From Skeletonema tropicum (lineage: Eukaryota > Bacillariophyta > Thalassiosirophyceae > Thalassiosirales > Thalassiosiraceae), in contig CM074134.1 in assembly GCA_037178625.1 (NCBI GenBank), forward strand, positions 1,612,001 through 1,676,000: a stretch of 64,000 bases of DNA, given 5' to 3'. The notes under the pieces are model-generated. The model had not been told where the DNA came from. It ran no database searches and saw only the letters and a list, made by a program, of their open reading frames with translations. Made by a program: the position numbers and the translations under genes. Below, piece after piece: positions 1,801 to 60,888 of the stretch (positions are counted from its first letter, which is position 1; every line of letters begins with the position of its first letter).

Positions 1801-1832
1801 TTTTGTAAAACTGTGCAGTGATCAATTTTACT
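1801..1832. repeat. Family A palindrome directly after the helicase stop codon
   Basis: Read on the minus strand, the helicase stop TAG is followed at once by an imperfect palindrome with arms GTAAAATTGATCA and CAGTTTTAC. A second, looser copy lies at about 1683-1745. The same class recurs in the introns of this family. Position just after a stop is compatible with a transcript 3'-end hairpin. Confidence 0.75.
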
Positions 1833-4669
1833 AATCACCAGATGAAGATCCTGCGAAGTAATCACTTGGGATTTCATGATCCTTCTTCGCTTCTTTCCAC
1901 TTCTTGTTCGGGTTGGTTATGATGTTGGTAATCCTGGTTGTCAGGTCTGTCCTGTCTTTGATGAAATTGCCCTTGATTGCTGCTGCGTACGATGTTTCTG
2001 TGATTTCTTCCAACTTTCTCTTGCTATACCTTGTCTTCGACTCTTCTGCCTTCCCCTCCAAGTATTTCACCCAATTTGCTCGCTTCTTGTACGATTCGCA
2101 GAACTGGCCATTTTGCTTTCTCTTGCAATTTTTTAATCGGTTCGTTGAAATGTTGCTTCCGGTCCAGTATATGGCACTGTCCGACGGGTATGCTTGATCT
2201 TTGGAGCCAAGTGTTTTGCCTCTGCTGGTAGCCACGTACATTGTTCCAAGAAACTTGCTAATCTCCCACAACTCATCTGCTGGATCTATTATCATGCGGT
2301 TCCAGCGGTCTCCTTTGTCGAATCCAGCTTCGAGTCCTTGACAGCGGTGGATGGTGATGGCGTAGGCAATTTGCAATGGCATGAATAATGCGGTGCAGCA
2401 TCCTCTGTTGCAAATCTGCTCGTAGGGTGGGATTGGCACGTGCTGTGCGCAATAAGTTGGGGTAGGATGCATTTGTATCAGTATGAAATGAGTTAGTAGT
2501 GTTTTCGCAGAGAGTGGCAATTGTCTTGTGTCTTTCGTGTGTCAACTTTTACTCACCGTTGGGTTGTTCTTGTCCCATGGGTCCTCGCCTGGTGGTGGTT
2601 TGTATGTAGGGAAATCCACAACAATGTACTTCGGTAGGCTAACCTCACCTTTACCGTTTGGTCCAACGGAGCGATCCTTATCGTAAACGATCTCGACAAC
2701 TACCCCAATAGCTGAGACGTACAATCCTGAGTTGGGATCGATGTTGGCTGACTCCAAGCAAACATGTGCACCTACGCACACATCAAAGGTGTAGAATAGC
2801 CTCCTGCCGTAAAAGTGCGACTGGTATGCTGTGTTATTGCCCGCCATCCTGCTGCTGAATTGACACCTGAGCCTAGCTATTGGTACTTTCAGTCGTTCGT
2901 GTGTTTTGATCAGCATGTCTACATTTTTCTGGGACATATCGTCCCGTTTCGCGTATACCCACAACGTCTTTGGGTCATTTTCTACCTCTTCCCTCAGTTT
3001 TGGATGATATTTTCCGAGTTCGTCTATGTGTAGTTTGATCAGGCGCTTTGCATCCTCATCAGTCTGGTTCCCCACTCTCATCCTGTTCATGAGATCGCTA
3101 TCCTCCTTGTCTTTTGCTCTAAAATTCTTCGTCAACATGAAGACCACATCCGTCATCATCTCAGTCAAGATTTTGCTACCCTCGTAATCGCATATTTGAT
3201 TGTTTTTACTCTTTCCTGTCATTGTTTTTGGCCTATCGTTGTTGTGGTATTCGTGGTAGCCGTTTATTGCTCCCCCCTTGTTGGACGGTGGCAGCTGGTA
3301 GTCGTCACCGAAGAACAACACAACCGGGACACCGCCCCACCTCTCCCGTTTATTGTGCCCATTAAATGCGCAATCTCTCACATGCTCCTCTGCACCGAAT
3401 GTTACGTGTGAGCCCAACATGCTTCTTTCATCGACCATCAGTACGAGCAGCTCTTTCAGTTTATTGCACATTTCTTCTCTTCTTTTTGCGTCCAATGATT
3501 TGTAAGGTACCTGTACGTTAATTCCCAGAAGTGAGTGCAGCGTGCACCCTTTGACGTTGTACGCTGCGCTGCCTGAAGGAGCAGCAACCTGGACTGTCTT
3601 GTTCGAATCGGTCAGCTTCCTGATGATGGAAATGATGGTGTTAATTACCAGCGATTTCCCGCACCCACCCATTCCTGTAATTGTTGCTCGTAGCGGCTTG
3701 TAATCCTCGTCATTATCAAGGAATTTCACCACAGTATCGACAGTGGCGAGTACGATCATCGCCTGTTCCTCGGACAGTTCCTCGATGTTGTAACTTGATC
3801 CGTCAGATTTCGTGGGTATTGTTGCGCCTGAATGATCGTCCATCATGGCTCTGGCACGTTGCTCTCTGAGTTTGACTGTGTACTCCTCCCCTGGTATTGT
3901 TACGTCTCTTTCTCCATCAAACGAGCTCTTCGACCAATCGTGATTCAATCCTACGTCGATTTTCTTGCCCCCCAAAAGTAACTCATCCACTTTCCTATCA
4001 GAGAGTTGGGTCGAGTGCAAATGATTCAGGTGTTGATCTACCTCGTCATCGTCGAGCTCGTCAATGTTGACATCTGCTTGAATTGTCCCTTTTCTTGCCA
4101 CACATTCGATCCTTTTTTCTTGCGCGTATCTAACAGCTCTCTGGTATTCGGTCCAAACACTTGTAGGGACCTGTCTTTTCTGCAGCATCAACTTGAATGT
4201 ATTGATTGTTCTCTGTCTGTCGCGTAAATTAAGTGGTTTGTCGAAGCTCCATGGCTTGTGAAGTAACAACATTCCTCTTGCATAATCGTAGTCCACCGGG
4301 TAACGTGGTCTGCAATTGAGTCCTTTGGCGATGAGTATCCTGTTCATGCGTCTATTGCTGTCAGGGTCTATCATGAACTTTTTCCTACACCACTCCTTGT
4401 AAAAGTACTGATCCAAGGTCAGTTTGCTGTACTTTTCCTCCCTGCTTGCATAGCTATAGACCAAGTCGTTTGGCTTAGGGTCGGATGATTTTCGTAGCTT
4501 CAGACAATTCTGAACCGACACGTAAGTGATCACATCTGAACAGAGTGTTAAACTCAGCCTATCAATCTCGTGCACCGCCTCTTGTATGCTGATGAGCCTT
4601 TTGCTTGTCATCCAGTTCAGTGACATTTTCACCAATGTTTGGACACCACTTATATCCTCGGAGCTTTTG
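1831..4669 (-). pseudogene. PIF1-like helicase part of the Rep-helicase gene (E1), 5' part deleted
   Basis: Two exons, 4669-2557 and 2442-1831, are joined across a 114-nt GTGAGT...CACAG intron. The protein carries Walker A (GMGGCGKS), a Walker B-like motif (LMVDERS), the GDDYQLPP motif, LTKNFRA, and after the intron ITIHRCQG and ATSRGKTL, i.e. the PIF1/Helitron superfamily-1 helicase series. The first exon starts at an acceptor site (CCCAG at about 4671), homologous to the Rep-to-helicase acceptor at 49507 in E4, so the ATG at 4635 is unlikely to be the native start. The Rep and protease parts are gone. The upstream donor left by the deletion (4929) would splice in a different phase, so a normal product is not expected. 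Confidence 0.85.
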
Positions 4670-4734
4670 CTGGGAGGTGAGAATTAATAGTGGCGGTAGG
4701 TTGTGTTAGCAGTGGGGTTAACAGTGTTCGATTG

Positions 4735-4870
4735 TTTCAATTTGCAAAATTGTGCACTGCACAGTTTTACCAAAGTCGATGGCGGAATACAGTGAGGTTA
4801 CCCAGCGTAAGATTTTGTTTCAATTTGCAAAATTGTGCACCGCACAGTTTTACCAAAGAAGATGGCGGAA
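4735..4870. repeat. Tandem duplication carrying two family A palindromes (intron)
   Basis: Two copies about 80 bp apart each contain TTTGCAAAATTGTGCAC followed by GCACAGTTTTACC, a nearly perfect palindrome (4744-4771 and 4824-4854). They lie in the intron upstream of the helicase exon, between donor 4929 and acceptor 4669. Confidence 0.8.
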
Positions 4871-5754
4871 TACACAACTGCACTGAATTCAGTGTGAGAG
4901 ACAACTTTCATCTTCAGAGCACACTTACCTTTGCACAGTGCAGGTTTCCTCCGCCTGGAGCGAAGGAAACAATCCTCGTTTCACCGCTTTCTCCATGGCA
5001 TCCATCAGGTGGCAGCAGCACACAAATTTCAAGACACATGATTGTGCTCAATACATCGAGCAATGTGAAATACCAGTCAATCGAGCGATGTACTTTGTTG
5101 TATGAGTATTCGCATTCATAAATGAATTCGTCCATCACTCTTTTGATACGAGGATAGAAGGGTTCATTCGCAGCCATATACATGACATCAGCGACGAACG
5201 GCAGCAGTTTCTCCTCTGTGTTGAGAGCCACGTTATCAACTACACAAGCGAGTGCGTGGAGGATACTAAAAGTGTTCCTCGGTACCAACTTGTCACCGGT
5301 CGGCCTCTGAACATGATCCGCACCAGCTGTAATGATTTGTTTCAATCGCATCTTCTTTGCTAATTTCGACATTGCCAAATTGTCAACATCGTCCGTAACA
5401 GAAAAAGTTTCTTGATACTCATTTACAACGAGTTTCCTGAGTCGTTGTACACTATCAGCAATATCACCTCTTGCAATCAAATCAACAGTATCAACGAAGT
5501 CATTAGGATTGCCATTCGACTTAGACGAGGGAGGAGCAGTCTCAGTGACGTTCGATGGAGAGGAATGTGCCTTCGCTCGCGTCAAACTCTTGAAAACTTT
5601 GTTGTCAGGGGAGAGGTAATGGTGGTAAATAGTTCCGCGGGATTTGCCGCCCTTACGCTTGATACTCTTCCTTTTCCATCCATCCGAGAGATCTGAATGG
5701 GTGTAATCAACCCACTCATTCTCGCTATGTAGAAGGCAGTTGCATTTATTTATT

Positions 5755-5788
5755 AGGTAAAATTGTTCAGTGATCGATTATACTAAAA
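5755..5788. repeat. Family A palindrome inside MBD-gene intron 2 (E1)
   Basis: GGTAAAATTGTTCAGTGATC followed by GATTATACTAAAA forms an imperfect inverted repeat within the GTGAGT...CATAG intron (5848-5725). The same palindrome is in E2 (26534-26567) and E3. Confidence 0.7.
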
Positions 5789-6070
5789 TGATTCAATAAG
5801 CAAGCGATACTTAGTGCGGCAGTGCACATGCACACAAAATAAACTCACATGATAGTTGAATCAGGAGAGGCCTTCTCTCGGACAGGTACCGGTTTAGACT
5901 TTTTCGTGACAGCACCTTTCTCGGACAAATCCGGTTCATCATCATCTTGAACAGGTTGATCACGGGAGCCCGAATGAGTTTTGTCTTCAAGTACAAGTTT
6001 CCCGTTCTCATCACTGGTGTGAAGTTGAAGGTTGAAAAAAAAACTTGTAAGTAAAAAGGAAAGACAGAAT

Positions 6071-6102
6071 TTGTAAAACGGTACAATGAACAAAAATACC
6101 AA
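6071..6102. repeat. Family A palindrome inside MBD-gene intron 1 (E1)
   Basis: TTGTAAAACGGTACAATG followed by AACAAAAATACCAA lies within the GTAAGAG...CCAG intron (6140-6014). It is a weaker member of the same class. Confidence 0.6.
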
Positions 6103-6625
6103 AATCATTGAACCACACGAAGGTTAACCTTCTCTCTTACCAAAAATGCTCACAATTTGAAGTGTACGGCGCTTGGCTTGTACCTCCTTTCTGAGCAATA
6201 GCGGCAAACATTAAGAAGTTGACCGCTGCAGACACCAGATCATCTTTGTCAGTAGAATCAGTCTTACCAACTGGGACATTCGGGTAATGTTCAGACAGTT
6301 CATTCAGGATGTACTTGATTGACCCGACTTCAAAGACGGAAAGAGCAGAAAAGAGCAGTTGTTCCTTCTCCAACTTGGCAACGTCAAACCCATCGCCTAA
6401 TGCAACAGACGCTAGCAGCGAGAAGATACGATCGTCGGTACGCACCAAACGCCAATTGATGTCTGTTACGCTCAATGCAATGACAGGAGCCGACGGTTTA
6501 GCGGCAGTCTTGACCCCTGACGAAGTAAGACGTGCATCGACATTGCTCCGATTCCGCACGGCACGGAAGCCCTTACCATTACTACCAACGGTGGATATAA
6601 CTGGATTTGTGTTGCCAAACTTCAT

Positions 6626-7491
6626 TATTTATTCGGACAATGTAGAAATGTGATGATGTAAATGATGCAATGCATAATTTATGAGAGCTGTTGAACGGCT
6701 CGACAACGTACAAACTGCCTACATAACCGTCGCCAACGCACCAGCGCAATAATCAGCAGAGAACAATGCAATCAATAACCAACCACGTCATGAAGTAAAC
6801 GAGTTCCTTCGTAAGCTACGTCGGCAACACAAGATCTTGTGGTTCAACACATCGACAACACGTCGACAAAAAGATTCAGCTCAACACAAGACGTCGACGT
6901 GGAGTTAAGAACTGACGTATTGATCAGTACGTGGCCAAAGATCGGCAGTTATTCAAATGCAAACACGTCGGCAACCAACGTCGGCGTCTATTTAGACTTG
7001 CATCAATAGACGACTCGGCAGATAATGTAATTGAGCCAATGTCGACCTGAGTACTTGCTGCATGAACTTAAATACTTTTTTGTTCATTGGATTTTGCCAA
7101 CACCTGACTTCTGGTACTTTGTGACGTAAGACGATTGGAATCAAGTGTACTAATTCCTTAAGTAACGAAGTTTACCACGTCACTCAGAGAAAAAATGAAG
7201 AAAATAGATGGTGACGGGGATGCACACCGGAAAGAACGAAGAAGCTCATCGACAATCTGACTTAATTAGCCTGGAAAAGTCCTTTCTAGCACAAATCAAG
7301 CGATTTTTAGATCTAAATCATAAGATATAGCATCTAAATGACAATCAAAATGGGCATTTCAGCGGGGATAGGAGGGGGGAAAATCCCAACACTTCAAGTT
7401 TAAGTTCCGGAAGTAATTCAGAGCAAAGCACCGCACCCAACGAATCCGCCGCACAGATCTCGCATAAAACGCAACAGCGCTCCACCAAATC
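6626..7491. promoter_or_regulatory. Divergent promoter region of family A (E1)
   Basis: This 866-bp non-coding region separates the MBD gene (minus) from gene A (plus) and is retained almost unchanged in E2 (24831-25696) and most of it in E3 (about 38450-39285). It is rich in repeated ACGTCGAC and ACGTCGGCAAC words between 6800 and 6985. Position and conservation suggest a shared two-way promoter. The repeated words are candidate factor-binding sites (inference). Confidence 0.55.
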
Positions 7492-9842
7492 ATGACCGAC
7501 AAACAACATCCAACTGAACACGATAACGACGACACCATGAACTCACCTGAAGCTACAGATGCAACTGAATCTGCGGTTGAATCTGCAGCTGAAGCTGTGG
7601 ACGCAAAAAGCACGTTAAAGGAGACAACGAGTCCGCCGGACAACCAGATGAACACCCCCGGAAAGAATAACACACCTACCGATCATACTGCCGAGGCTGT
7701 CACCAGACCAACCACCAACAACGTTATCACCCCTGACAAACCAACAGCAGGTACAGAAACGACTACGCAGCAAGTCGAGGAAGATCGACCTGAGCATTAC
7801 ATCAAAGGCACAAATACGGGCCTGCCAACAAAAATTAGTGCTACGGTTTTCGTTTGCTTCACCCATTTGGATAAAGAAGGCAAATTGGTAGCGGAGAATG
7901 TAAATCAAGCGGTACCACAGCAAGAGAAGATACTCGGGCTATTGAAACTGGTGGCTACGGGTAAATCCGGCGACAACAAAGAAATGAACGACAGTCAGAT
8001 ACACTTACACTTCAGCAAGAAAGCAGCGGAGGATGATTCCGCGGAAGATTGCGTGAGTTTACTTTTGTTGAATCTGCGCAACGAACCATTTTGTAAAATT
8101 GATCACTGTACAAATTTGGGAATGTTGATTCGTTGATCGATTGCGATGTTGCACAGAACGAATTTGTAAATTTGATCACTGTACAATTTTGGTAATATTG
8201 ATTCGTCGATCGATTGCTGCAGCCAAACTACATCATGCTACTTGATTTGTATAATTGCTCACTGTGCGATTATACGAATATTGATTTATAGATCCGTTGC
8301 TGAACTCACAACTAACACTTGATTGATGCTACTCCACATTAATAACAGGAGAAGACAGAACCAGTCAATGCAACTCATATGTCATTGATTGCATCCAGTG
8401 AAGAAGCGAGGACTAGTGTGGCTTACGGATTGCCATTCACGTATGTTCCAGAGCTATCACACTTAATCGACGTACTCAACGGAGATGATGGTAGTGGCAC
8501 AGATGAAACGAAAAGAGAAATATCAGAGGCATTAACTGCTAATGTGACAACAGTCGAAGGTCAACGAAAGCTTTTGAGCACTGCAAGAAAGCACCATTGG
8601 CTAGATGAAAGTCAAAATGAAGTCAATGTGGCAGTCCAAGATGGTATCGAGGGATTTGGTCATTTCTACACTTCCTTCACTGCTTCATTGAAATTCTATG
8701 TCACAGCTGTTGAAGGCAACCACCGCTTGATAGCATTATTGGCAGCTCTGCTGCGATGCAAAGTGAAGAGAGAGTCAGGCTACTTCTTCAAGCCAAGCAA
8801 TCCCGGAGATCCGACGTTCTTGACCAATTCATTCGTAGGAATTGAAGATAACGAACATGACGCCATGGAGAATGCTCTTGAGAAATTGAAAAAATCGGAC
8901 AGTGATGCAATATTGAGCCACCCCTTCGACGCTCACATTACAGTAGCATCAAGGACTGCTACCGAATCTTTCCCCGCGCCTCACCTCGCGGAAACTCTTC
9001 TAGCCGAGAAAAGCAAGAACGTGAGCAAAAGGAAGCTTGGATCAACAGTACTAAATATATACAGAGGCTTAACTAAGCATAATTCTGTGAGAAGAGACCA
9101 TGAGGATTGGACTGAGAAGGAAGTTGGTACTAACGGTAAGATAGTCAGCAAAGGTAAAGTTTTGACCATAAAGGGGCTGAGAGCGCGAACGGCAAGGACA
9201 CTTGAAGAGTTTGAAGATGACCCAAGTTTCACCGAAGAGCCGCTCACTCAATACTACGAGAATCCAATGCGTGAATACGAGACGTGCCAAAACGAAGTGC
9301 AGCTCAGAGTTGATGGTGGAGGACCAAATGATGTACTCAAATTGCCTGTCAAGTGTAATATGGACAACTTCGGTTCTACAGGGAACTACCCGATGACTGT
9401 TGAGCACAGCATGGCCAGATTTTTCCCACTCGCGGTAGCGGTACAGTCATTGCTTGAAACTGATGGAATGCAGCTATTTACCTCAAAGCAGATAAGCGCA
9501 ATGTTGGCAGGCGGAATTATTATGCCAAGATCAGGAGTGAACACGATTGTGATACCCAAGGATGATACTGATGGAAAATACAATGACACGCCTAAACTAT
9601 GGGACAGGTCAGTTGAAGGGATCATGGCGACAAGTACTGCAGCGTTGGTCTACACAGTCGAGTCTGCCAAACTGTTCAACGCAGATGCCTTGCTTGATCA
9701 AACTTTAAATGCCTTCAGCATCATGTCGCAAACCAAAGATATGGCGAATGATTTGAGATTGAGTATTGGTAAGAACAAGCTTGGTATCATGATCCGAAAA
9801 CAAACAGTTGAGACGACGAATGACTGCCGGACAATGTACTAA
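7492..9842 (+). pseudogene. Gene A (EGNHR-motif protein), truncated copy in E1
   Basis: Exon 1 (7492-8052) and exon 2 (8349-9768) join in phase across a GTGAGT...ACAG intron holding three palindromes. The Thr/Asp-rich N-terminus is followed by a segment with TKISATVFVCFTHLDKEG. Exon 2 contains the conserved VEGNHRLIALLAALLRCK. The donor GTAAGA at 9769 remains, but a deletion soon after (near 9791) removes the third exon, so the frame ends at 9842 in unrelated 3' sequence. Protein sequence up to the break is the same as in E2. Full description under the E2 copy. Confidence 0.75.
8091..8276. repeat. Three family A palindromes within one intron of gene A (E1)
   Basis: Copies at 8091-8118, 8164-8191 and 8247-8276 have the pattern TTTGTAAA/ATTTGATCACTG followed by TACAATTTTGG or close variants. 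All lie in the 296-nt intron 8053-8348. Confidence 0.8.
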
Positions 9843-9843
9843 T

Positions 9844-10094
9844 TGGTATAAGTGTGCACAGCACAATTATATATAATTTGATCAGGCGCACTGCAATCTT
9901 CTCTCAAATCCCTACACAAATACTAGTGCCGATGGACAGATAGATGATTTTCACAATTCTAACACAATTAAAGACAACGTCATTGCAGAGCAACTTTATA
10001 GCCGTATTCTATTGTAAAGAGACTAATTGGTAAAATTGTGCACAGCACAATTATACCAATTAAGGCCAACGTCATTGCAGAGCAACTTTATAGC
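9844..10094. repeat. E1 3' subterminal repeats: palindromes and direct repeats
   Basis: Palindromes at 9844-9869 and 10024-10062 (arms TAATTGGTAAAATTGTGC and GCACAATTATACCAATTA) alternate with direct copies of CATTGCAGAGCAACTTTATAG at about 9980-10000 and 10073-10093. On the opposite strand the direct repeat reads CTATAAAGTTGCTCTGCAATG and is also present in E5. The regular arrangement near the 3' end suggests protein-binding sites used in transposition or transcript ending. Confidence 0.7.
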
Positions 10095-10174
10095 CGAATT
10101 CCGTTGTATAAAGACTACTGACAAGCCACACGGCAAATGGCCAACAGAGCAAGATGACGACACAATACTTTACA

Positions 10175-10255
10175 GGCCCCGAGGGCCCGCGCTGAACCCG
10201 CCACATACACCGCTGCACGCCACTACTATCGCACCATTCTGCGCGCCCCTGTTTA
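10175..10255 (+). repeat. E1 3' terminus: GC hairpin plus 68-nt tail
   Basis: GGCCCCGAGGGCC (10175-10187) is the inverted partner of the 5' hairpin but sits 68 nt inside the element end. The tail includes CGCA-CCATTC-TGCG, a small 4-bp stem about 11 nt before the terminus, and ends CCCCTGTTTA. An internal 3' repeat paired with a terminal 5' repeat is the asymmetric arrangement described for Helitron2/Helentron elements. The canonical Helitron CTRR end is absent. Confidence 0.75.
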
Positions 10256-11722
10256 TAATGAGAGTGATAACGTCGGTGACGGCGGCACGATGATGCCACC
10301 AACAAGCTTAGCGACGCTTCCGACGGTAAGTTCATCTTCCATTTCATCATTATCTGCAGCGGCTTCGTCAGCAAATGCAGAGACAGACTGTTCTAATAAT
10401 GACCAAATTCAGTGGTGGCGTGAAAGGAGTCGTCACTACAAACAACAGTGCGAGAGGCTTCAAATGGAGATTGATTGTCGCTCTCGTGCGCACAGGGGCG
10501 GCATGGGTAAGAACAAACAAACGATGTATATGACGGAGCAAGCCAACATGACCAATAAGACTGCACTGATGAACGGCACAGAAGCCGACATTTGGCCATC
10601 GTTCAAGTTTTTATTCTTTCGTGGGAGATGGACTGTGTATGATGAGGATAATCCACATTCGTTCGCTGCACATGTGATGAGGTATGTTACACTACCACAG
10701 TCGTTCGAGGGATATGCAGGGCAGTACTACGAAACGTTTGCCTTGCCCACAGTTTCGTCGAAGTTATCTAGCTTGAGAGGAAACTTCGTTACGACCTGCA
10801 ACGAAATGTTCAAAGGTGAGTAGGAACTGTACATGACTCCCTTACTATTTATTTGTGTTCTTGTTGTCTTTTTGGAGTGATACCATGCCGCTCATGTTTT
10901 GGTTTGTCTTTATGGTGCCACGCACTATCATTTTACCTAGACCTTTATCGCAGTCGGATGAGCTTCGACGATGTCGGCACTTCTTTTGATACACTGTTAT
11001 CAGTCGCTGACGATTGGAGTGCCCTACGAGGTAATACAAGTGCGCTTGTGGAGCTTTACGACCTCATTTACTATTACGCCAGCATTGTGTACAAAAAAAC
11101 TAAGATGAAGGCATGGTTGAAGGCGAATAGACACTTGTCTGTTCTTGACAAGATGAAAGCAAGCGATCTCGCGTTTTCGTTGTTGGTATTTGAAAATTAC
11201 CACCCAAAGTGGGTAGCTGAAATCAAGGTTGCAAGGGAACAAGAGGGTATGAAACACGACGACCACCAAGGAGCGGACACCCGCGTTACTGATAAGGAAG
11301 CGGCCGAAGATTTGTCGTCGAAGAAGAAGCGGATTGCTCGGATGAAATTGCGATACACGAAGGATCCATTTGCGAAGAAGAAGTACCTCGAAAGTGGTTG
11401 GACTCCTGAGGGATTAAAACGCTATGAAGAGCTTCAAAAGTTGTTTGCCGGGCTCTTGAGAAATAAAGTGGCGTGGCAGGCATGCAAAGATGGCTGGGAC
11501 TCTTACATTGAAGGCAAAAGGCGAGATGATGTCATTGTTTGCTGGGTTCCGAAGTATCACAGTCAAGATTTGGATGGTACTTCTGATGACGGAAACGACA
11601 GTGGTGAGGAGGAAGGGTTCGACTTTGTATTGGAAGGCAGTGAAGGAGGCGGCAAAGGTGAGCTGAGTGATGTTGTTACACCAGATTTGCCACCAATGGT
11701 AGGAAGCGCTCTAGGAGTGTAA
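10256..11722 (+). pseudogene. Host gene, remainder after E1 insertion (unknown function)
   Basis: Coding continues from 1310 at 10256-10815, then a GTGAGT...CCTAG intron (10816-10940), then 10941-11722 with stop at 11720. An N-terminal Ser-rich stretch is followed by a helical segment (QWWRERSRHYKQQCERLQME), then a folded region beginning WPSFKFLFFRGRW and a Lys/Arg-rich middle (SSKKKRIARMKLRY), ending in an acidic tail with DDGNDSGEEEGFDFVL. No family was recognised. Predicted intact product 474 residues, probably nuclear by composition. An ATG at 10290 could start a shortened protein of about 437 residues downstream of E1. Confidence 0.75.
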
Positions 11723-16053: not shown

Positions 16054-16496
16054 TGAAATGGTGCGCGCGGCGATTTGTGACTGCATGTTGTGTATGGTGT
16101 GTAGTGCGGCGCGGGCCCTCGGGGCCTGTTTTTTTTTTGTGCAATGTACCCGTCTATAAATTTGCTCTGCAATGCTTGTTGTTGTAACATAAATGTGTCA
16201 TGATGACAAAATTATTCTGTGGATTTCGTGTTGGATTTTTTTTTGCAATGTATCCGTCTATAGTTGCTCTGCAATGCTTGTTTAATAACATTCTTATAAC
16301 AGAAAGTTAGGGCCTGTTTTTTTTTTGTGCAATGTACCCGTCTATAAATTTGCTCTGCAATGCTTGTTGTTGTAACATAAATGTGTCATGATGACAAAAT
16401 TATTCTGTGGATTTCGTGTTGGATTTTTTTTTGCAATGTATCCGTCTATAAAGTTGCTCTGCAATGCTTGTTTAATAACATTCTTATAACAGAAAC
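16054..16496 (-). mobile_element. E5: 3' end of a family B Helitron-like element (remnant)
   Basis: S1 breaks at 16053/16054 inside a monomer (...CATCGATA, next base T). The reverse complement of the new sequence ends CACCATTTCA, and the hairpin GGCCCTCGGGGCC lies at 16114-16126, 60 nt from the junction. It is followed by the 3' direct repeat CTATAAATTTGCTCTGCAATG and a palindrome of the E4 class (ATAAATGTGTCATGATGAC + AAAATTATT at about 16186-16216). No genes and no matching 5' end are seen up to 18180, so it is truncated or its 5' side is rearranged. Confidence 0.7.
16123..16496. repeat. 188-bp tandem duplication within E5
   Basis: The segment starting GGCCTGTTTTTTTTT at 16123 is repeated from 16311 with few differences. 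Each copy holds two CTATAAA-TTGCTCTGCAATG-type repeats and one family B palindrome (about 16186-16216 and 16373-16405). Confidence 0.85.
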
Positions 16497-18782: not shown

Positions 18783-19036
18783 GGCTATAAAGTTGCTCTG
18801 CAATGACGTTGGCCTTAATTGGTATAATTGTGCTGTGCACAATTTTACCAATTAGTCTCTTTACAATAGAATACGGCTATAAAGTTGCTCTGCAATGACG
18901 TTGTCTTTAATTGTGTTAGAATTGTGAAAATCATCTATCTGTCCATCGGCACTAGTATTTGTGTAGGGATTTGAGAGAAGATTGCAGTGCGCCTGATCAA
19001 ATTATATATAATTGTGCTGTGCACACTTATACCAAT
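18783..19036. repeat. E2 3' subterminal direct repeats and palindromes
   Basis: CTATAAAGTTGCTCTGCAATG occurs at about 18784 and 18875, with the palindrome TAATTGGTATAATTGTGC / GCACAATTTTACCAATTA between them (18816-18854) and another at 19009-19036. Same layout as in E1 and E3. Confidence 0.75.
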
Positions 19037-20670: not shown

Positions 20671-20695
20671 TCTGATGTATCGTGTATCAATTTCT

Positions 20696-20728
20696 ATAAT
20701 TGTGCATTGCACAGTTTTACTAATTGGG
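20696..20728. repeat. Family A palindrome between two converging genes (E2)
   Basis: ATAATTGTGCATTGCACAGT followed by TTTACTAATT lies between the stop of the 289-residue gene (20670) and that of gene A (20887). This position fits a two-way transcript terminator or 3'-processing signal. Confidence 0.7.
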
Positions 20729-32480: not shown

Positions 32481-32501
32481 ATCATTGGGTCCGACACTCG
32501 A

Positions 32502-46632: not shown

Positions 46633-46668
46633 GAAAATAATTTTGTCTTCAAGACAAATTTATTTTCC
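46633..46668. repeat. Family B palindrome after the helicase stop (E4)
   Basis: AAAATAATTTTGTCTTC and AAGACAAATTTATTTT form a near-perfect inverted repeat about 35 bp past the helicase stop (46702). Its position matches the family A palindrome at 1801-1832, its sequence does not. Confidence 0.8.
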
Positions 46669-49700: not shown

Positions 49701-52700
49701 GTATGCTACGACATACTTGCAAACACTCTCTATCTCAGTAACATCCGGCTTGTCGGGGTGCGACCTGTAAATCAATAGCTGGATATCGACATTGCCCCTC
49801 CAGCATTGCAATAGCGTCTTGCTGTGCTGGACAGCCTTACGAGATTGCGTTCGCGGTAATCTGAAATGTTCTAAGCCTCTACGATCAGTGACAATGACCG
49901 ACATGTTGCAGAGCGGCTTTCCGGGTGTGTCACCTTTGCCGTACTCGGACTCTTTGCCATGATCAAACCTACACTCTCGTGGCTCATGCTTCCTGTTGTC
50001 ACCAAGGCAGTAATTATTGCATTTGTGCACCATGCATTCCTGACATAACAGTCGAACGTCCTCTCCTTTATCAGGACATTCACAAAACCGGTGCATTAGT
50101 GGATTGATCGAGTCGGGCGACCTGTCCGAAACGTGGTCTTCATTTACGCGAATGTCGGCTGTCATGTCCAACACTCCAGTGGCGTACTTTTCCATGACCT
50201 TAACCTTCTCCTCCTCCGACTTAGCCCGATAGAAATCATACAAATAAGACTTGTCCCTACCAATTCCCAGTAAGTGTAAATGAATCTGACCCCTCCCTGG
50301 TGCGAACTCGACCCTCGCCCAGTAGTGCTCAATACCAAGAGCATTTTTCACCACCGTGTCGAGAAACACCCTCGACCTCTTCATGAAGAAATCATTCACG
50401 TACAACGTAAATCGTTTGACGGATTTGGTCATTGCTACGAAGTCCTTCTTTGCTAGCAGTTCGGCATGCTCGATATTACCAGCTTGTTTCTCGAGCTTGA
50501 TCATTAGCCTTCGCAGATCTGGCCACCAATTCTCTGCACATGACAGCGTTGTGAAGTGGGTGGGAGGACCGTGTCCACGGGATATGTGGAAGTCTATCCA
50601 CGCTTCCAACTCTTCCGTCTTTCCTCGCCAGAAACTGTCTGATCCTCTTATGCCCTTTGCGAGGTAGCGCAACTTGTTCAAATACTTCATGTCTCCTGCC
50701 GCAAACTGTTGTTGTAACTCTTCCACCGTCGGAGGCATTCTGTCGCTAGCACCAAGGAAGTTCTTGTCCTTGTAGAAGAAGTTCCCCTGCGTGTTGTTTG
50801 TGTGTCTTTGCAGCATGTTGAAGACATACAAGCAAAACATTTGATCGTTGATGAACCTTCCATCTTTGAACCGTATCATATGCGTTGCCCAGCTATGGAT
50901 GTCTTTCACCTTTCCTCGTATTGGGTCATACACGTCACCAATACCGCCTGGGAAAAGACACGGATATGCATTCACGAAAATTTGTACCATTGCGTCGAAC
51001 TCACTGGTAGACGATGACGCAATTTTTGGATAACATTAATGGTCAGTTCAAAGAATGCATGGCATATTGAGGTGAAAAAACATGGCACTGGGAAGAATTG
51101 TTCACTTACTTCAAGGGCTTGCTGTGATCGATCGGAGGGAAGTTGAGAATCTTATCCTTCTGGCCTGTCTGTTTCGCTATGTTTACGAAATCTTTGATGA
51201 CTTTCGTTTGGGTGGCGTTGGGCGAATCACCTTTGTAGTTCGGGTGAATTGTCTGGACTTCAACGTCATCGTCATTAGATTCTGTATCACATTGGTTGCC
51301 CGACAGCGTTTCAGTTGCATTTGCGACAACATCTCTTCTGCTTCGCTTCGTTTTCAGAGTGTGTGTCTCTGCCACATCGTAGATAGAACCGTTCTTTATC
51401 CAATCAAGATTTGACTCCGAAATTGTAATGTCGTGGTAGCCGCGATGATGAATCTTGAGCCACCGCAGAGCTGCTAGGACTTTCTCCTTTCTCACTTTGT
51501 AATGACGACTTTTCTGAATGCCCTCGTGATGATCGCTCATGTGGCGGATAAAAATGACCATGTTCGATTTGGTTTGAGGCAGTTCTGTGCACATAGTTTC
51601 GATATCCTGTGGAAAGCAAACGCAATGGCCGTTGATACCATAGATACCGTCCTTGATGTGCATCGATGGTATGAATGGCGAACACCGTCGAATCAGCAGT
51701 TTTTCAGCCATTGTGAGGTCTTTCAGCTCGACCGGTATGTCGTACCTCACGACTTGTTTGCCGTCTTCGCCCATTTTGATGCATCCTTCGCTGTCACGTT
51801 CGTACCAGACTGGATGAAGGTTGTTCTCCAGGAAGTAGGATTCTGAGTGATTCTTTTTCTTGCATGTTTCGCATACGCTCCTTTCCTTAAATACCAACTT
51901 GTTCTCCAGGCAAACACTGCAGGTTTGTAGGTCCAGCGTTCTCATCTTATGCTCGAATTTCAACATCTCCTCTATAGTTTGTCTAGCTCGGTTTGTCTCG
52001 TTCGACCTGCCACGCTCACCATAGCAAGGGTTGTCCATGAATGTTACGTCAAGCGTGATGTTCAGTTTCTTGAATTCATTCCTCGCTCGATAATCCACCA
52101 TTTTTTTCATTACTGTGACCCTCTCTTGGTACTCTCTGAAGGTTGGAGCATCATACGGCTTCTTCTCGTAGAATTTATCCACAATACCGTAACATAGAGA
52201 ATCAAAGTATAACTGGTTTATGACTGACCTTGCCTTCTCGTAATCATTCCCTGAATTGGCCCAGCTAATGTACTTTCTTGTGTCGCGCCTCTGGTCTAGA
52301 TATGCTGCACCGCTCTTAACTCGTCGTGATTTGTACCAGTGGTTATGCCCAGTCACTCCACTCGATGTTCTTTGTCTGTAATTCTTTTCTGACCTCGACG
52401 TGTGCATGGGAATCTTTTCTTCCTTGCTAGATGCTGATTCGTCGAATTCAAATTCTTCTGTCACTTCCGATTTTAATGAGGCGCAATCACTGTCATTTTC
52501 ATCGACTGTTTCGTACGGAGGAATGACAACCACTTTGTCGAGACCCTTCCACTTCGGCGAAGGATTCACCAACCTCTTGTCTTCCAATGGTCGAACGATT
52601 TCCAACCGCTTCACATGGTGGACCTTTCTCATGAGCCACGTGCCGTCAGATATCTGAATAATCTCTTCTGATGTAGGATCACCAATGGCGACAATTACGC

Positions 52701-54932
52701 CCTTCCTTGGTACGTCTTGCTTTGAGCTCCTGTATTCTATGATGTCACCCATCTGAACGAATGTATTTAAGTCGCTGGATGCTGGCTGAACTTCATCGTC
52801 GCAGTCGAAGTTACAATCGACGTGAATGTAATTGTAATTGTCGTCGGAGCTCAATCGAACTTGATGGATGTCACCTGAGGTTGATGGTTGTAAAATAATT
52901 TTGTACAGATGTCAAATTTATTTTGATGATGTATATAAGTATTTGCTTTAGACAAAGAGCACTTACCTTCTGTATCGACGGAGAGATGGTCATCTTGGTC
53001 CGATTGAAATTGATACGACGCATCATCAATGATCTGTGCATCTGACATTACTACGTCAGAGCCCTCCGAAGTCTGTCTGTCAAGAATTTCCACCTCTTCT
53101 TCGTCTTCTTCGCTATCACTGACTGGATCATGATCAGACCTAGGTTCGTGTATGCGGTGGTGTTGATAGGACTTCATAATATGGGCCATAACGTTGTATA
53201 TTTCAGTCCGCATCCTACTAATGTCGGATTCAGTATAGCCAAACAACTCGTGACCACTAATACTGGTGGAGAAATTGTCTATCACATCCGTCATTTTCAC
53301 ATTAGGCATTTTCACCTCTGCATCGTTCAACATCCGCACTAGGTTCACAACGTAACGACAGACATGTACACCACAATCATAGCTGTTGGTCTGCACGAGA
53401 ACTGATGGAAGGTAGTATTCTTGTGAGTTTGTCATCAGTAGTGTATGACAGGATAAAATAATACATACTATGAGTACGACTCACCTTTGGGAGAATATAA
53501 TTTACATGACTCGTGCCGATGACTGAAAGGTCGGTTTGTTTTGTCCAGAGCATTGTTGTTGTACTTATCCCATTCCTTGTTGAGTATGCCTCGAACGGCT
53601 CTCGCAAGATGCTGCTTATTATGCACCGTTCCGCACCCGAGACAATCCAGATGGATCATGGCAAATACATCTCCTGTGTACATTGGATCGTTCCATCGTC
53701 TTTTAGTCTGATTTATGAGCTTCGGATTCAGCACCACTATCAAACTCCAATGATGAGCTAGATGCACCGGAAACAATACCATCGATTTGTCAAAGATGTT
53801 GACATTCTTTAGCCACTTTTGGTATCTCTCATTGTATCCATCGTTCAATACGCTCGAAAGAAGGAATGTTGAGCAAATGTGTACTGAAGACGTATTGTCC
53901 TCTGGACACCTTGGTGTAGTCACCCATTTGAACCAAAAATTGAGAACCGCATCATTTAAACACTCTTCCGGCTCAAGTGTTGCAAAATCCATACCGTGTA
54001 CTACCACAGCGTTCCTCTTAATGTTGTCTCTAAGAGAGTTCTCAAAATACGTCGACAGCGACGGAATGTCACGGCCATTAGCCAGATTCGACAACCTCGA
54101 CGATAGGTCCGAAGACAACCTGTCTGCTGACAAGAGTCTTTGGTCATTCGTCTTGAACGACAACGCAAAACAATGATTGACATTGGCATTTACAGCGATT
54201 GAGACCTGCTCGCGGAATGAAGACTTGGCCTCGGGCAATTTTCTTCTCTCCAGGGATGATATACCCGAACTGACCAAGCTGTCACAAATGGTGTGGCAAA
54301 CAGGACTGTCTAAGGAGTGTTTCTGTAAGTCCATTATGTTGCTAAGTGACACTAACACGATTATGGCAACAAGTTCCTGTGATTTGTGTTTCGGAATGAA
54401 ACGAAGCTTCGTCTCGCGATGACCGTCTATCAAATTTTGTTCAGCGACCATACTTTGCTTCTTGATCTCCTTCAGCGGTATGCCTATGTTTCGGACTTGC
54501 TTGACACATAGGATTTTCTGAAGCCAGGTTGTCACGAAGAATATAATATGTTTTAACGATATATTCGGAGCTGGAAGTAACATTGGGAAAAGACCAAAAT
54601 TGTCAGCGATGAGGTGAAGTATCGGACCTCAAAATATTTTTGTCGTGAGGACAAATTTATTTTCAGAAGCGTAAACCGTACCAGTGACACTCGTACAAGT
54701 ACAAAAACTCACCTTGTCTACTAGCAATGGACGATGTTGTATCTTTTACAGGTGTCACAACTGGAACTGAGATGTCTGCTAATGGCTCACCCGGTGGAGT
54801 AAACGACACTGGTAGTTAGTCCGATCCAGCCAGATGATTGGATTATATGAAAAAAGTAGGAGGGAAACAGAATATGTCAGTATAGAATTCGATCCTAGAA
54901 TGTTAACAAAGCAACATTTCACCCAATTGCAT
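46702..54932 (-). CDS. Fused Ulp1-like protease / Helitron Rep / PIF1-like helicase (E4)
   Basis: Proposed exons: 54932-54923, 54808-54713, 54570-53485, 53419-52967, 52874-51110, 51003-49639, 49507-47404, 47295-46702; total 7473 bp, in phase, about 2490 residues. The tiny first exon is the least certain. In order: a C48/Ulp1-like protease with HLAHHWSLIVV, HLDCLG and QTNSYDCGVHV (His, Asp, Gln-Cys); a Cys-x2-Cys region and a DUF6570-like segment (DLTMAEKLLIRRCSPFI); the Helitron N-terminal region (AYPCLFPGG) and Rep with HUH motif GQIHLHLLGIG (about 50275), Cys/His finger and Y2 motif YVVAY (about 49715); then helicase with GMGGCGKS, DERSM, GDDFQLPP, ITIHRCQG and ATSRGKTL. Rep nicks and joins single-stranded ends in rolling-circle transposition and the helicase unwinds; the protease role is unknown. 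All catalytic motifs look intact. Confidence 0.8.
49564..49596. repeat. Family B palindrome in Rep-to-helicase intron (E4)
   Basis: AAATAAAAATGTAGAG followed by AAGACAAATTTATTTT lies in the intron 49638-49508 that joins Rep and helicase. Confidence 0.7.
52892..52924. repeat. Family B palindrome in protease-to-Rep intron (E4)
   Basis: AAAATAATTTTGTACAG followed by ATGTCAAATTTATTTT lies in intron 52966-52875. Confidence 0.75.
54631..54663. repeat. Family B palindrome in intron before the protease (E4)
   Basis: AAAATATTTTTGTCGTGAG followed by GACAAATTTATTTT lies in intron 54712-54571. Confidence 0.75.
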
Positions 54933-54973: not shown

Positions 54974-57900
54974 CTAATTGACAATGTCCTCCTCAATAGC
55001 ACTCCAAATCGGAAAGTCGCGACCACGATAGATGCTATTCCTGTCGCAATCTTTGACGTCATCGAAAGAGGTGTATCCAATTTCAGTCAAGTATTGCTTG
55101 ATACCCCAGTCAGTTAAATGCTTATTGAGCGGTTGGTTAAGCGTCTTTGTACCAAAGCCATTTTTGAAAGTAGCTTCCAATGCAGCTTTGATATCTTTAC
55201 ACAACTCATCATCATCTTTGTAAGTGACATTCTTCATGGATCCTTGACGATACTCCCCGTTGAAGAAGCCGTTATAAAGATTGGACGAAGATACTTTCAT
55301 CGCATCGAGAGCGATGACCGCTGGGACTGTGGCATCGGAAAACATGCTCTTGATGTTGGATTCAAACTTAGTCAAGTGCGTTTCGACTGGAAAGCCTTTT
55401 CCTGGGAAGTTCATAATGCAACACATCTTGTAGATCGGGTAGGTAGCCCCATTTTTGCGTGTCTTCTTTGAAATATTGTTGTCACCACCAAAGACGAGAG
55501 CTTTAATAGTGGTTTCATTGAAAACGTAGCAACTGGCAACTTCGTTCTGCTTGTGAACGTGCTTGAAGAATGTTTCGCACACAGACGTCATGGTTTCAGA
55601 CTTGAGCCACCATGCATCTACACCCATTTCCATGAAGATTATGAAGCAGCTTTGTCCACCAGTTTTCCTGTTGAAGATTGGAGGACTGACTTGCAGGGCT
55701 ACTCGACTGCTCTTCCGCTTCTTTACTGGAGATGCAACTTTCAAAATAGCTTCTTTACCGCCAGACACTAAGCCCCCCCATCCACCACGAGAGACTACGC
55801 CAGAAGACACTTCACCACCCTCGCTCGTCTGATCTCCCTGATATTTTTGTAACTCACCTTTCGAAATTAACTCAGTTGATGTGCTCTGAGTCGCATTGTT
55901 CTTCTCTTTCAACATTTCAATCTCTGCCTGTAACTTCTCGATCATGTCTGAGTCTTCCTTCGAAGTTTTAGCAGATTGACGATTGTTGGGGGTTGTAAAC
56001 AAACTTCGAGCCGACATTTTGGTGTCACTGATATCAATCTCATTTGGAAGAGCCTCTTTAGATGAATGCGATCTGTCACCGAAACTTGATTTGCCATTGG
56101 CATAACAGTCGAATAGAGATGGTCCCCTATCATTGCCAAAACCCGATTTCAAGCGCTTTGTATCAGGAAAGAACATCTCAAGTTTGTAATCTAATGGTTC
56201 GTCTGAACGATCAGAGCCGCTGCGTGACCTGATACCACCTCCAGCAGGTGAAGCTACCTCAGAGGACTCTTCACGATTACTGAACACAAACACTGATACA
56301 CCCGCAACAATACAACCACCATCACCAAGGCGATTCTCAATCTTAGTCCGATCTAACAACAGCCTGTACACAATAACGGGCGAAAAGGCATCGCGGGATT
56401 CTACACAAAATGGAAAACGCACTAATCTCGACACCTCACAATCTTTTAGCCCGTCAGGAGGAAGAATTAGCCCAATATCAACGCCAAAAATACGGCTAAA
56501 CGAGTCAAACAAGGTGTAATACCACTGGATTGTGTGTAATTCCCTCTTGTATGAATTGCTGCTCTCGAGAAGGAACTGACGGAGAACTGGTGTCACTTGA
56601 CTGAAGTAATCATGATCGTCGTCGACATGATCAAGAATCGTTTGAATGAAATCTACAAAAAGTGCCTCAGTACCGTGCCAACTAGCTTTTGTAGAATCAT
56701 TCAAAACGCAACTCGTCATATACGGAATGGATGTAGTGTTTCGCAGATCGATTGTCTCGTCACCGGGCTTAGTTTCGTAGTTTCTACCCGCAGTTGTAAT
56801 TAAGGACAAGCCATGTTTCTTCACAAGATCATCACAAGCCATGTTATCGACGTCGACGCTGACATTCACAACTTCATAGTAAATTGGAGGTTGTACAACC
56901 ATAGCAATCGACTTTATGACGTCCTTGGCTTGATCCGCCAACAATTGCGAAGGGCTATGTGGCTCTTCTTCCTCTGGAAGATCCTCAGCAGACGCTAGCT
57001 TATGAGAAGACTCATTTTTGATAGACGCGTCGAACTCCTTTGCAGCTTTGAGACTGTTAAAAATGCGACCTGTCGGTGCAATAAATTTGTAGTATTCCTT
57101 CCCAATATTAGAGCCACTCTTTCTAATAAGAGTCTTCCGGAGCCATTGACCGCTTGTCAACTCGTCGTGATAATACGGCTCATACCCATCACTTCGATGC
57201 ATAATAGAAAAGAGAAATAAATTTGTCATGAGCACATATTTATATTGTAGGATACACAAGATGTATGGTGCGAAACATTTAGCGGGACAAGCACAATAAA
57301 TGAGAGGAACGTATAAAACAGTAAAGTACTTACGACGCCTTATTGTTGACAAAATCACCATCACTCTTAGTTGGTGTTGATGAAACATCACCAGAGGAGT
57401 GAGTTGTGCGAGAATGAACTTGAGGGGCAGCCATCGTGCGATCGGCACTGTCAGAAAAAGGATAATTGAGGTTAATAAAAAATCGCGGAGAAAATAAAAT
57501 TGGCATGATCACAAAAATATGTTATGACGTCACTCACGATTTCACATCACATTTCTCGACTTTTTCTCTTGGCGAAACAGAGACGATGCTACCAGACTGC
57601 AGCTGGGTGCAACCGAAAGATAGCTGCTTCTTCGTGGACATTGTCTTAATGATCTCATCGATAAGAACTACCTTGTCGTTGCGAATGGCTTCCATACCGA
57701 TCGTAGCACTAACATACATCAATTCATGCTCGGAGCATGACTCGAACAACGAACGAAGCGTCGACAACGGATCGTCGAAATCAGAATCCATGGAACCCCC
57801 GAAAGATGACTCGGCCATATCGCGAAGAATCGCGCTGTCGATGATGAGATGTTTCCAGGAAACATTGTACACATCAAACTTACCAATAGGAGAGTTAGAA

Positions 57901-58067
57901 GGATGTGGAGCTGATGCGGATGATTGCGGATCTTTGGTGAGACTGACGCTTTGAGCGGCCTCTGCACCCTCTGCTGGAGATCGCTTACGAAGCTTTCGAG
58001 TGGAGCGGCTGGTGGTAGAAGAAGAAGTGCTGGAGGTAGCACGCTCGTTTGTAAATCCAAATTTCAT
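54974..58067 (-). CDS. MBD/TAM-like domain protein (E4), apparently intact
   Basis: Exons 58067-57538, 57447-57334 and 57191-54974 total 2862 bp, 953 residues, same exon number as family A. Starts MKFGFTN. The MBD-like domain begins exon 3: SGQWLRKTLIRKSGSNIGK then YYKFIAPTGRIFNSLKAAKEF, closer to the MBD/TAM consensus than the family A copy. One IDWY-type module follows (here IQWYYTLFDSF, then ILPPDG and GDGGCIVAGVSVF), then a coiled-coil segment (DMIEKLQAEIEMLKEKNN) and a C-terminal domain (from SCFIIFMEMGVDAWW) with no match in the truncated family A copies. A DNA-binding accessory protein is likely, possibly for methylated or silenced DNA. It ends 41 bp before the Rep-helicase start, so the two may be co-transcribed. 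Confidence 0.75.
57214..57245. repeat. Family B palindrome in MBD-gene intron 2 (E4)
   Basis: AAATAAATTTGTCATG followed by AGCACATATTTATAT lies in intron 57333-57192. Confidence 0.75.
57491..57520. repeat. Family B palindrome in MBD-gene intron 1 (E4)
   Basis: AAAATAAAATTGGCATG followed by ATCACAAAAATATG is a weaker copy in intron 57537-57448. Confidence 0.6.
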
Positions 58068-58750: not shown

Positions 58751-60888
58751 ATGACAACAACAACAAGAGCTTCCGCCGCCGTCGAAGCTAATACAAAAAA
58801 AGCTGCAAACGACGATTCCAACCAAGATGCCACCACAACGACGGCGACCATGCCGCCAAATGATGCTGCTGAATGTGTTGCCGACACCGCTGCAAACAAG
58901 CCCATCAACAACACGGAAGCGTCGTCCATCAAACCCAGCAAGAATGTCAACGAGCACATCGCTACATTAGATATCAACGAAAAGGAGAGGAAGGATCTGT
59001 TCGATTCGCACGTTACCAAAGCATCAACAGTGCACATGGCTTTTGGTGTTGTATTGTGTTTCGTCAACATTACAGACGGCAACATAATCAACCTGAACGT
59101 TAACCAGGCAGCTCCACAAGACAAGAGGATTGACACTCTACTAAAATCCTTTACAACGCATTCAGAAACAGAAATGAAATCATTCAGCAACGACAAAATG
59201 GTCGCTTATTTCTGTTGTAAATCTGGCTTCGACAAAAAGGACTTCAATAGCTATGTAAGTGTTCAAAACTGCGTCGTTTCAAAATAAATTTGTGTTGACA
59301 GCAAAATTATTCTGAACTAACTCGAAGAGGACAGTCGAAATAAAAATGTAATGAGTTCAAATTTATTACGTTCATGTCACTAACAACCCAATCTTGTATT
59401 CATTGTCACAATGCAATTCATCCACAGGAATTAAGCGAAACTGTGTCGGCCTTTGAAACTGCTCTTAATGGAGTAAACAAATCAGGTAAAATGAGTGTGA
59501 GTCCATTTGCAGTGAACGAAGCTGTAACAAATTTTATAGCAACTATCCGCAAAGCATCGATCGAAAGTACCGAGATCAAGGAAGCTCTTAAAGCTGATGT
59601 TACAACAGTGAACGGTCAAAAAACACTACTCCGTATCGCAAGAAAGAACGGATGGTTCAAAAAAGGAGAGGAAGACAGGGTTCAAGCAGCTGACAGAGAT
59701 GGGGTCGATGGCATGTTGATATTCCGCGATGCATTCAGTAGCGCCTTGTCGTTCTTTTGGGCTAGCGTTGAAGGCAATCATCGCGTAATCACTGGTGCAT
59801 CTGCTCTGTTTAAATGCAAACCCAGACATGATTCACCCATCAAGATTGCGAGGAGAGGGGAAGATCATTTCTTGACAGGTCAAGATATAGGCGTTGAGTC
59901 AGTTGACCCATTGGAAGAACTACACGCTGGTAGTACATCACTGGTCACTCATTTCCAAACTCCGATATATGTCGACGTACTCGGGTCCAAATTACAAGCA
60001 ACAGAGCTTGCTACAGCAAAGACACTCGAGAGGCAGCTACTACTCTCCATTAGTAAGACAATTGCAGATGAAAAACATGCATCGTCTCAAGCAACACTAG
60101 CTATTAGGTACTCTCAAGTAGCAATCAGGTTTTCACCCGACAAAAACAAAATCGCACAAAAGTCTGACGGTTCGTTCTACTGCGATGGCGAGGAAATCGA
60201 GGAGAAGTCCAACAAAGATATTCTCGACCCGAAAGATGGTGCTTTTCAATCAAACAACATACTGAACGACTATGTCAACGACTCATCTCCGTTTGGAGAA
60301 CCTCTCAAACGAGTACTGTCCACACTACACTTCAAAGAGGAAGACACAGACGCTAGGATCGACTTGCCTGCATGGATGAACGCAAACACAGCTATGCTAA
60401 ATGCAGAAGCGAAGAGTGTGAAGAGAGCAATGTCTGAACTAATTGGAACTGCCAATGCGACAGTCATGAGCTTCTCAGAGAGGGAGAAGCGGGCGTTACT
60501 CCTATGTAACAAATTCTACGGCAACACTAACAAACCTATGGTAAAGCTGAACGAGAAACTCGCTGAAAAATTGGGATTGGATTTGCCAGAGTTGTTCGAT
60601 CCAGATTCAGAGAAGAGCATCGACCTGACTGTCCTACACTTCATTACAGAATGGATGATAGCGGCAAACATGAACAACAACCTCGACCTACTCCAACAGG
60701 CCTTGGATTCGCTCAGTCGGGAACTTTCAAATATGGGAGAGAAGGTTGTGAAAGAACGCAAAGTACACTTATCTATGCCTGGCTACGTCAAAACAGCACT
60801 TACAGAGTTAGGCCATGAACCACCAGAGCACAGGCAGGACCAGCCACATCGCCATGTCCCTCCAAATTACAGTGCCAAAACACATTAA
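58751..60888 (+). CDS. Gene A: EGNHR-motif protein (E4), probably truncated at its 3' end
   Basis: Exon 1 (58751-59254) and exon 2 (59428-60888) join in phase and give 654 residues. Thr/Ala-rich start, then HMAFGVVLCFVNITDGNI and NLNVNQAAPQ (family A: ENVNQAVPQ). Exon 2 has DVTTVNGQKTLLRIARKNGW, DGVDGMLIFRDAFSS and SVEGNHRVITGASALFKCK. Similarity to family A ends near LSRELSNMGEK, and no counterpart of exon 3 follows. The intron holds two family B palindromes. The conserved EGNHR block in two diverged families implies selection on that site; the ParB/DGQHR link is only suggestive. Confidence 0.65.
59281..59370. repeat. Two family B palindromes in gene A intron (E4)
   Basis: AAAATAAATTTGTGTTGACAG plus CAAAATTATT (59281-59311) and AAATAAAAATGTAATGAG plus TTCAAATTTATTACG (59339-59370). 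Family A has three palindromes of the other class in the equivalent intron. Confidence 0.7.

Follow-up and report, generated by a model that had tools for sequence, protein, structure and literature searches.

Family-specific palindromic dyads in the introns and at the gene ends of Helitron-like elements of the diatom Skeletonema tropicum: candidate recognition sites for an element-encoded protein

What keeps a short palindrome at the same places in two transposon families while its sequence has been replaced in each? The question is raised by a 64,000-nucleotide stretch of the Skeletonema tropicum genome (GenBank assembly GCA_037178625.1, contig CM074134.1, positions 1,612,001 to 1,676,000 of the forward strand; the window), in which Helitron-like elements of two families, A and B, carry dyads of 35–37 bp in most introns and at gene ends. 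An earlier note on this DNA had offered three roles for these palindromes: introner-like mobile introns, splicing or termination hairpins, and binding sites for an element protein. The last is the best fit of the three. The dyads are quite probably protein sites of some kind and, on balance, we favour binding by a symmetric, probably dimeric, element-encoded protein, for which they would be family-specific DNA recognition sites.

The elements combine an HUH Rep (match to Helitron_like_N, E 3.2e-21) with a PIF1 helicase (E 1.1e-16). Their gene set also includes DUF6570, an Ulp1 protease, a small X protein and a protein with a methyl-CpG-binding domain (MBD), and on the opposite strand gene A, whose product contains an EGNHR motif (the ‘EGNHR’ protein). 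The gene order MBD-Ulp1-X-DUF6570-Rep-helicase is common to family B and the family A copy L035. Element E1 of the window is an internal deletion derivative of family A, in which MBD is fused to the helicase and Ulp1, X, DUF6570 and nearly all of Rep are absent.

The family A dyad reads TTnGTAAAATTG-NN-CASTG-NN-CAATTTTACnAA, and that of family B is roughly AAAATAAATTTGT, a variable centre around TSA, then ACAAATTTATTTT. They had been described as different classes; they are indeed family-specific but not unrelated, both having an 8+9+8 structure with common, diverged TAAA.TTG half-sites. Matches to the consensus range from 21 to 26 of 27 positions for the A dyads of E1 and from 22 to 31 of 31 for the B dyads. 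At these strict levels there are 9 dyads in E1 (at least 21/27) and 8 in family B (at least 22/31), against 0.0 and 0.02 per shuffle in 100 Markov shuffles, and all 17 are noncoding. Palindromes in introns and at gene ends are thus real in both families (Table 1).

Seven places are common to A and B: the gene A intron, MBD introns 1 and 2, the MBD-Ulp1, X-DUF6570 and Rep-helicase introns, and the helicase 3' end. Each noncoding segment having any dyads holds one to three. The claim that equivalent introns (of gene A, of MBD and before the helicase) carry them is confirmed with one reservation: the E1 copy in MBD intron 1 (6073) scores 19/27, the same as a coding-region match at 28026, so that this dyad of family A is weakly supported. 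The reported dyad by the helicase stop is present in both families; in A it overlaps the stop codon itself (26/27), as another A dyad does at the gene A stop, and in B it follows at a short distance. Family A has two dyads past the gene A stop (9846 and 10030 in E1), near the other element end, while the consensus scan found none after the gene A stop of family B (60888). The dyad seen earlier between converging open reading frames (ORFs) of element E2 is also real. Strict scans found no dyad in the introns at 2556–2443 (helicase), 53484–53420 (Ulp1) and 51109–51004. For the helicase and Ulp1 this upholds the view that introns within a single domain lack dyads, but 51109–51004 lies between the Pfam matches to DUF6570 and Rep, and is not clearly inside one domain.

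Within each family the dyads form a uniform set. Identity is 0.724 in A (12 dyads) and 0.762 in B (8 dyads), and leave-one-out position weight matrices place all 20 dyads in the right family, although part of this likeness, and of the 20/20, is by construction, since the dyads were gathered by family-consensus matching. Between families, dyads at equivalent positions are no closer (0.526, 13 pairs) than those at other positions (0.521, 83 pairs; label permutation p 0.178). This supports the earlier proposal that positions are conserved while the sequence has been replaced, and homogenised, as a set in each family. Dyads at different positions show identities, per five-column block, of 0.59–0.81 in A and 0.49–0.85 in B over about 35 columns, falling to 0.2–0.36 on either side (61 A and 27 B pairs). 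Similarity that stops at the dyad edges is like that of a protein site rather than a repeat. Where an intron holds several dyads, their flanks are partly alike, as local duplication would leave them: the three in the gene A intron and the two in the Rep-helicase intron of family A, and three 70-bp repeats in the X-DUF6570 intron of a further family, C.

The dyads are abundant in the 78.4-Mb genome, to which all genome-wide counts refer. The pattern common to A and B, TAAAWTTG-N9-CAAWTTTA with at most one mismatch, has 959 matches against 1 for the reversed control, and the A pattern, with at most two mismatches, has 757 against 0. Among 51 listed places of these 757, 41 are identical in sequence to a dyad that was mapped in an element, either at its helicase end or in its X-DUF6570 intron (a count by eye; the remaining 10 are unmapped). 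The dyads are likely to be absent from host introns.

Introner elements are repeated sequences found in introns, and an introner-like or miniature inverted-repeat (MITE) insertion, the palindrome being a small mobile unit that created the introns, would account for several copies per element, tandem pairs and hundreds of copies genome-wide. This explanation is disfavoured and very improbable. The similarity is limited to about 35 bp, the introns differ in length and, judged by eye, have ordinary GT-AG ends, dyads also occur outside introns, and the 41 exact element dyads among the 51 places listed speak against it too.

A palindrome may act as DNA or, once transcribed, as an RNA hairpin, and the arms were examined for covariation. 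In 16 aligned A dyads the CANTG centre varies as little as the most conserved positions of the arms (C and G in 16/16, A and T in 14/16), and the two spacer pairs beside it are unpaired in 8 and 9 of the 16, a block pattern rather than that of a stem. Within A the paired share of cells is 73.2%, compared with 75.5% in the shuffles, and 477 of 500 shuffles reach the observed value; within B (10 dyads) the values are 70.6% and 71.5%, with 370 of 500. The arms thus do not covary within families. A lack of covariation between copies was one of the results that the earlier note had said would refute its reading; it is seen within families but not between them. When A and B are pooled (26 dyads), both pairing (72.2% vs 65.4%) and covariation (0.278 vs 0.179) exceed all 500 shuffles, while the numbers of changed pairs and of pair types do not exceed them; the shuffles ignore relatedness, and the pooled signal is one of family differences. 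The double changes are T-A to A-T in the outer pairs, G-C to A-T at the edge of the dyad and A-T to T-A within the arm. Arms that change together between families and independently within them are what one would expect if a symmetric protein reads the site and its specificity has shifted between the families.

The lack of covariation within families argues against RNA hairpins acting in splicing, 3'-end formation or polycistron processing. These would fit the confinement of strict dyads to introns, gene ends and the terminal region, the AATAAA within the family B half-sites, and the absence of strict dyads, in both families, from the bidirectional promoter region, which runs from the MBD start codon to that of gene A (a rough p of 9e-4, based on noncoding lengths judged by eye). 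The last point would be weakened by a palindrome at 6657–6683, found in A only, at a level (17/27) that yields 1.6 matches in E1 shuffles. Mismatches in the sense orientation show no consistent RNA-strand bias, G-T outnumbering A-C in A (16 vs 8) and not in B (4 vs 7), and the position of the dyad within the intron varies. Hairpins, as suggested earlier for splicing or termination, are therefore improbable.

Other families add to the picture. In family C (L046, L039) the palindrome TTGAAATTTTTTTCGCCCCGGTGAAATTTTTTCAA occurs in MBD intron 2, and a related dyad occurs three times in the X-DUF6570 intron. In family D (L036) the Rep-helicase intron holds a stretch identical to the C dyad over 29 bp, and a weaker relative follows the apparent helicase stop at a distance of about 42 bp. 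Unrelated dyads thus occupy four places equivalent to those of A and B, one of them on weak evidence. A relaxed C/D pattern is scarce in the genome (15 matches, two of them exact, vs 6 for the control). Two other stretches, of which one is a single-ORF Helitron, gave no match to the A dyad at 20/27 or to the B dyad at 21/31. In L046, an A-like 5' terminus with an A dyad adjoins the MBD gene of the family C element (1206–1491), suggesting that one element was inserted into another.

Dyads are also retained in the non-autonomous family N1, as expected for cis sites of a trans-acting factor. Its internal dyad has 110 genome matches, and its body 40 full-length matches among 132 candidates scored. 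N1 (L038 5467–7753; window ~16060–17891) seems to combine a 5' end, an unassigned middle and the C-terminus of the family B helicase.

If the dyads are bound by a protein of the element, its specificity should differ between families. Protein identity between A and B is 79% for Rep, 64–70% for the helicase, 57% for DUF6570, 52% for Ulp1, 44–49% for X, 28–33% for the MBD protein and 24–32% for gene A. The last two are least conserved and so are the two candidate binders, the same that the earlier note had named. The MBD protein has a three-strand-plus-helix domain with a profile match to MBD domains (E 0.0015) and the methyl-CpG-binding domain fold (probability 1.00, E 4e-3). CpG is scarce in the dyads (5 vs 15.4 expected in 12 A dyads, 3 vs 8.3 in 8 B dyads), which makes methyl-CpG reading by the MBD at the dyad itself unlikely. 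The MBD may instead locate methylated copies, with another part of the protein, or another protein, reading the dyad.

In the proposed mechanism the dyads, spread over the noncoding segments, would be bound as DNA by the element's own protein, either the gene A or the MBD product. Each family's full set of sites would track the specificity of its protein, and a shift in that specificity would change the sites together, symmetrically in both arms. Tagged in this way, a family could recognise its own copies and let them escape silencing, as VANC proteins do on VANDAL elements, which are Mutator-like. We tentatively regard such anti-silencing as the most likely purpose of the sites, with transposition or replication as the main alternative. 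The host has homologues of C5-DNA-methyltransferases (12 matches), and in a model diatom young transposons are overexpressed in correlation with the loss of DNMT5a (PMC9998398).

Several observations weigh against recognition by an element protein for this purpose. Gene A showed no known sequence-specific DNA-binding domain (no Pfam match in the four exon ORFs scanned; the structure model was unusable). Strict dyads are missing from the promoter region, a plausible place of action for an anti-silencing factor. Between DUF6570 and Rep, neither the family B intron nor its A counterpart (L035, between 5488 and 5599) holds a dyad, so not every inter-domain intron carries one. The consensus-based gathering of the dyads counts here too, and VANC motifs form dense same-orientation arrays, whereas here there are few palindromic dyads per element (PMC5735166).

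The alternative purpose, in which protein-bound dyads serve transposition or element replication as Rep/helicase accessory sites or pause sites, is unlikely, though less so than RNA hairpins. It would suit the presence of family A dyads in both terminal regions and their persistence in non-autonomous copies that still need mobilisation. In L047, a more distant single-ORF Helitron lineage of this genome (2223-amino-acid ORF), a 44-bp palindromic repeat occurs three times upstream of the ORF (1179–1376), perhaps that lineage's own version of such sites. The dyads are, however, mostly internal, with one or more in most introns between ORFs, and the helicase-side A dyad lies about 500 bp from the element end, unlike the near-terminal Helraiser hairpin (PMC4778049). 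Least probable of all are module-boundary recombination sites (attC-like) for gene swapping or deletion. Dyads do lie between ORFs and at stop codons, and several deletion derivatives exist, but of the two deletion junctions examined, those of E1 and E3, neither is at a dyad: the former is 87 bp from the nearest one, and the latter joins MBD and helicase coding sequence directly. At the E1 junction (4940–4951) MBD and the end of Rep overlap by 12 bp, which suggests that they were joined through microhomology.

Table 1. Positions in the window of the dyads, elements and genes discussed (the window is numbered from its first nucleotide)
Feature	Position	Strand	Basis or remark
Element E1, family A, internally deleted	1308..10256	- (Rep-helicase direction)	3' end ~1308, 5' end ~10256; copy boundaries and full copy L035
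A dyad, 27-bp core overlapping helicase stop codon, E1	1805..1831		26/27
A dyad, Rep-helicase intron, E1	4744..4770		consensus scan
A dyad, Rep-helicase intron, E1, tandem partner 83 bp away	4827..4853		consensus scan
MBD gene of E1	4917..6625	-	start codon by eye
A dyad, MBD intron 2, E1	5757..5783		consensus scan
Weak A dyad, MBD intron 1, E1	6073..6099		19/27
Weak dyad-like palindrome, CAATG centre, just upstream of MBD start codon, E1	6657..6683		17/27; not counted as dyad
Gene A of E1 (EGNHR protein), two exons in E1	7492..9842	+	start codon by eye; fast-evolving candidate binder
A dyad, gene A intron, E1, first of three	8093..8119		consensus scan
A dyad, gene A intron, E1, second of three	8166..8192		consensus scan
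A dyad, gene A intron, E1, third of three	8249..8275		consensus scan
A dyad, outer arm overlapping gene A stop codon, E1	9846..9872		consensus scan
A dyad, 5' terminal region, E1	10030..10056		consensus scan; 39-bp near-perfect palindrome
B-like dyad, apparent 5' end of non-autonomous derivative N1	16187..16217		repeated at 16375-16405
A dyads, 5' terminal region of E2	18822..18848 and 19006-19032		consensus scan
A dyad between converging ORFs of E2	20694..20720		consensus scan
Three A dyads, gene A intron of E2	24047..24229		consensus scan
A dyad, MBD intron 2 of E2	26539..26565		weak intron 1 copy at 26223-26249
A dyad at helicase stop of E2	29147..29173		consensus scan
E3, family A copy	38043..42006		dyads at 38043, 38227, 39812 (weak), 40128, 41980
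B dyad, ~37 bp after helicase stop	46635..46665		consensus scan
PIF1 helicase ORF, family B	46702..49548	-	Pfam
B dyad, Rep-helicase intron	49565..49595		consensus scan
Rep (Helitron_like_N) ORF, family B	49635..51035	-	Pfam
DUF6570 ORF, family B	51106..52911	-	Pfam
B dyad, X-DUF6570 intron	52893..52923		consensus scan
Ulp1 (Peptidase_C48) ORF, family B	53468..54628	-	Pfam
B dyad, MBD-Ulp1 intron	54632..54662		consensus scan
MBD gene, family B	54977..58067	-	MBD fold near start of exon 3; start codon by eye
B dyad, MBD intron 2	57215..57245		consensus scan
B dyad, MBD intron 1	57492..57522		consensus scan
B dyad, gene A intron	59282..59312		consensus scan
B dyad, gene A intron, second	59338..59368		consensus scan

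The 713-amino-acid helicase exon of family A is found at full length and 100% identity at 32 listed places, indicating recent amplification. In 26 of 30 copies a fuzzy comparison places the 3' (helicase-side) breakpoint of this family at GGCCGA or immediately past it rather than at CTRR (window ~1308 and L005–L034; 3 not readable, 1 cut by a contig end), so the ends may differ from those of classical Helitrons, which have 5'-TC and CTRR-3' termini and insert at AT. E2 (19155–22490) has an additional 529-amino-acid ORF after gene A and a converging 315-amino-acid ORF, both absent from E1 and with no notable family match. The ORF at 10158–11722 begins in the 5' terminal region of an element and runs over the element end into flanking DNA; the 5' terminal stretch is common to E2, E3 and L046, and the sequence beyond it differs. 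Satellite arrays with a unit of about 30 bp (GATATCGATGCCCAGTGCTAGATATCT), partly inverted, adjoin element copies at 12175–16054, 35308–37837 and 42415–46367, and the same satellite adjoins the end of a helicase copy outside the window (L018). A run of N at 34868–35347 falls within a region with a reverse-transcriptase ORF (32481–35375). The host genome contains silicon transporter genes (E down to 2.7e-245).

A broader and more doubtful suggestion is that this diatom rolling-circle lineage evolved a dispersed self-recognition code independently of the plant VANDAL elements: some ten palindromes of its own per family, in most of the noncoding segments, a dimeric reader, and specificities that switch together with the sites, up to full replacement in distant families, so that own copies are freed from methylation-based silencing. 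If so, transposon-encoded, family-specific recognition of self DNA arose in a second transposon class and in a distant eukaryotic lineage. The elements would then supply naturally occurring pairs of protein and site whose specificity has switched, and would allow the co-evolution of transposons and silencing in diatoms to be tested directly, a test that long sites and nearly identical copies make easy to set up.

In the literature covered (titles and abstract openings, subscription journals mostly falling outside), neither family-specific intronic palindromes in Helitrons nor a Helitron-encoded MBD protein is described. Fungal DNA transposons, Helitrons among them, that encode a TET/JBP dioxygenase are alike in carrying a methylation-related protein; theirs is an enzyme, unlike here, and the abstract mentions no family-specific dyads (PMC12730594). 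Helraiser, too, is a Helitron with a palindrome, but it has a single hairpin of 19 bp, which lies 11 nt from the 3' terminus and acts as a transposition terminator, whereas the present dyads are multiple and internal (PMC4778049). The best analogue is the VANDAL/VANC system (PMC5735166, PMC10398659). According to the text cited, VANC21 of Arabidopsis binds short family-specific motifs that its own VANDAL family carries in introns, between genes and in terminal noncoding regions, and it removes methylation at these places; related VANC proteins recognise different motifs, the targets evolving through tandem repeats (PMC5735166). The motifs there are directional and of 9 bp, and the proteins are of the DUF1985/DUF287 type; here there are palindromes of 35–37 bp in Helitron-like elements, only candidate binders, and no DUF1985/DUF287 Pfam match among the element ORFs scanned. 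The two systems are alike in having family-specific motifs in introns, intergenic and terminal noncoding regions that differ between related families, local tandem duplication of these motifs, and a fast-evolving protein encoded by the element itself (PMC5735166).

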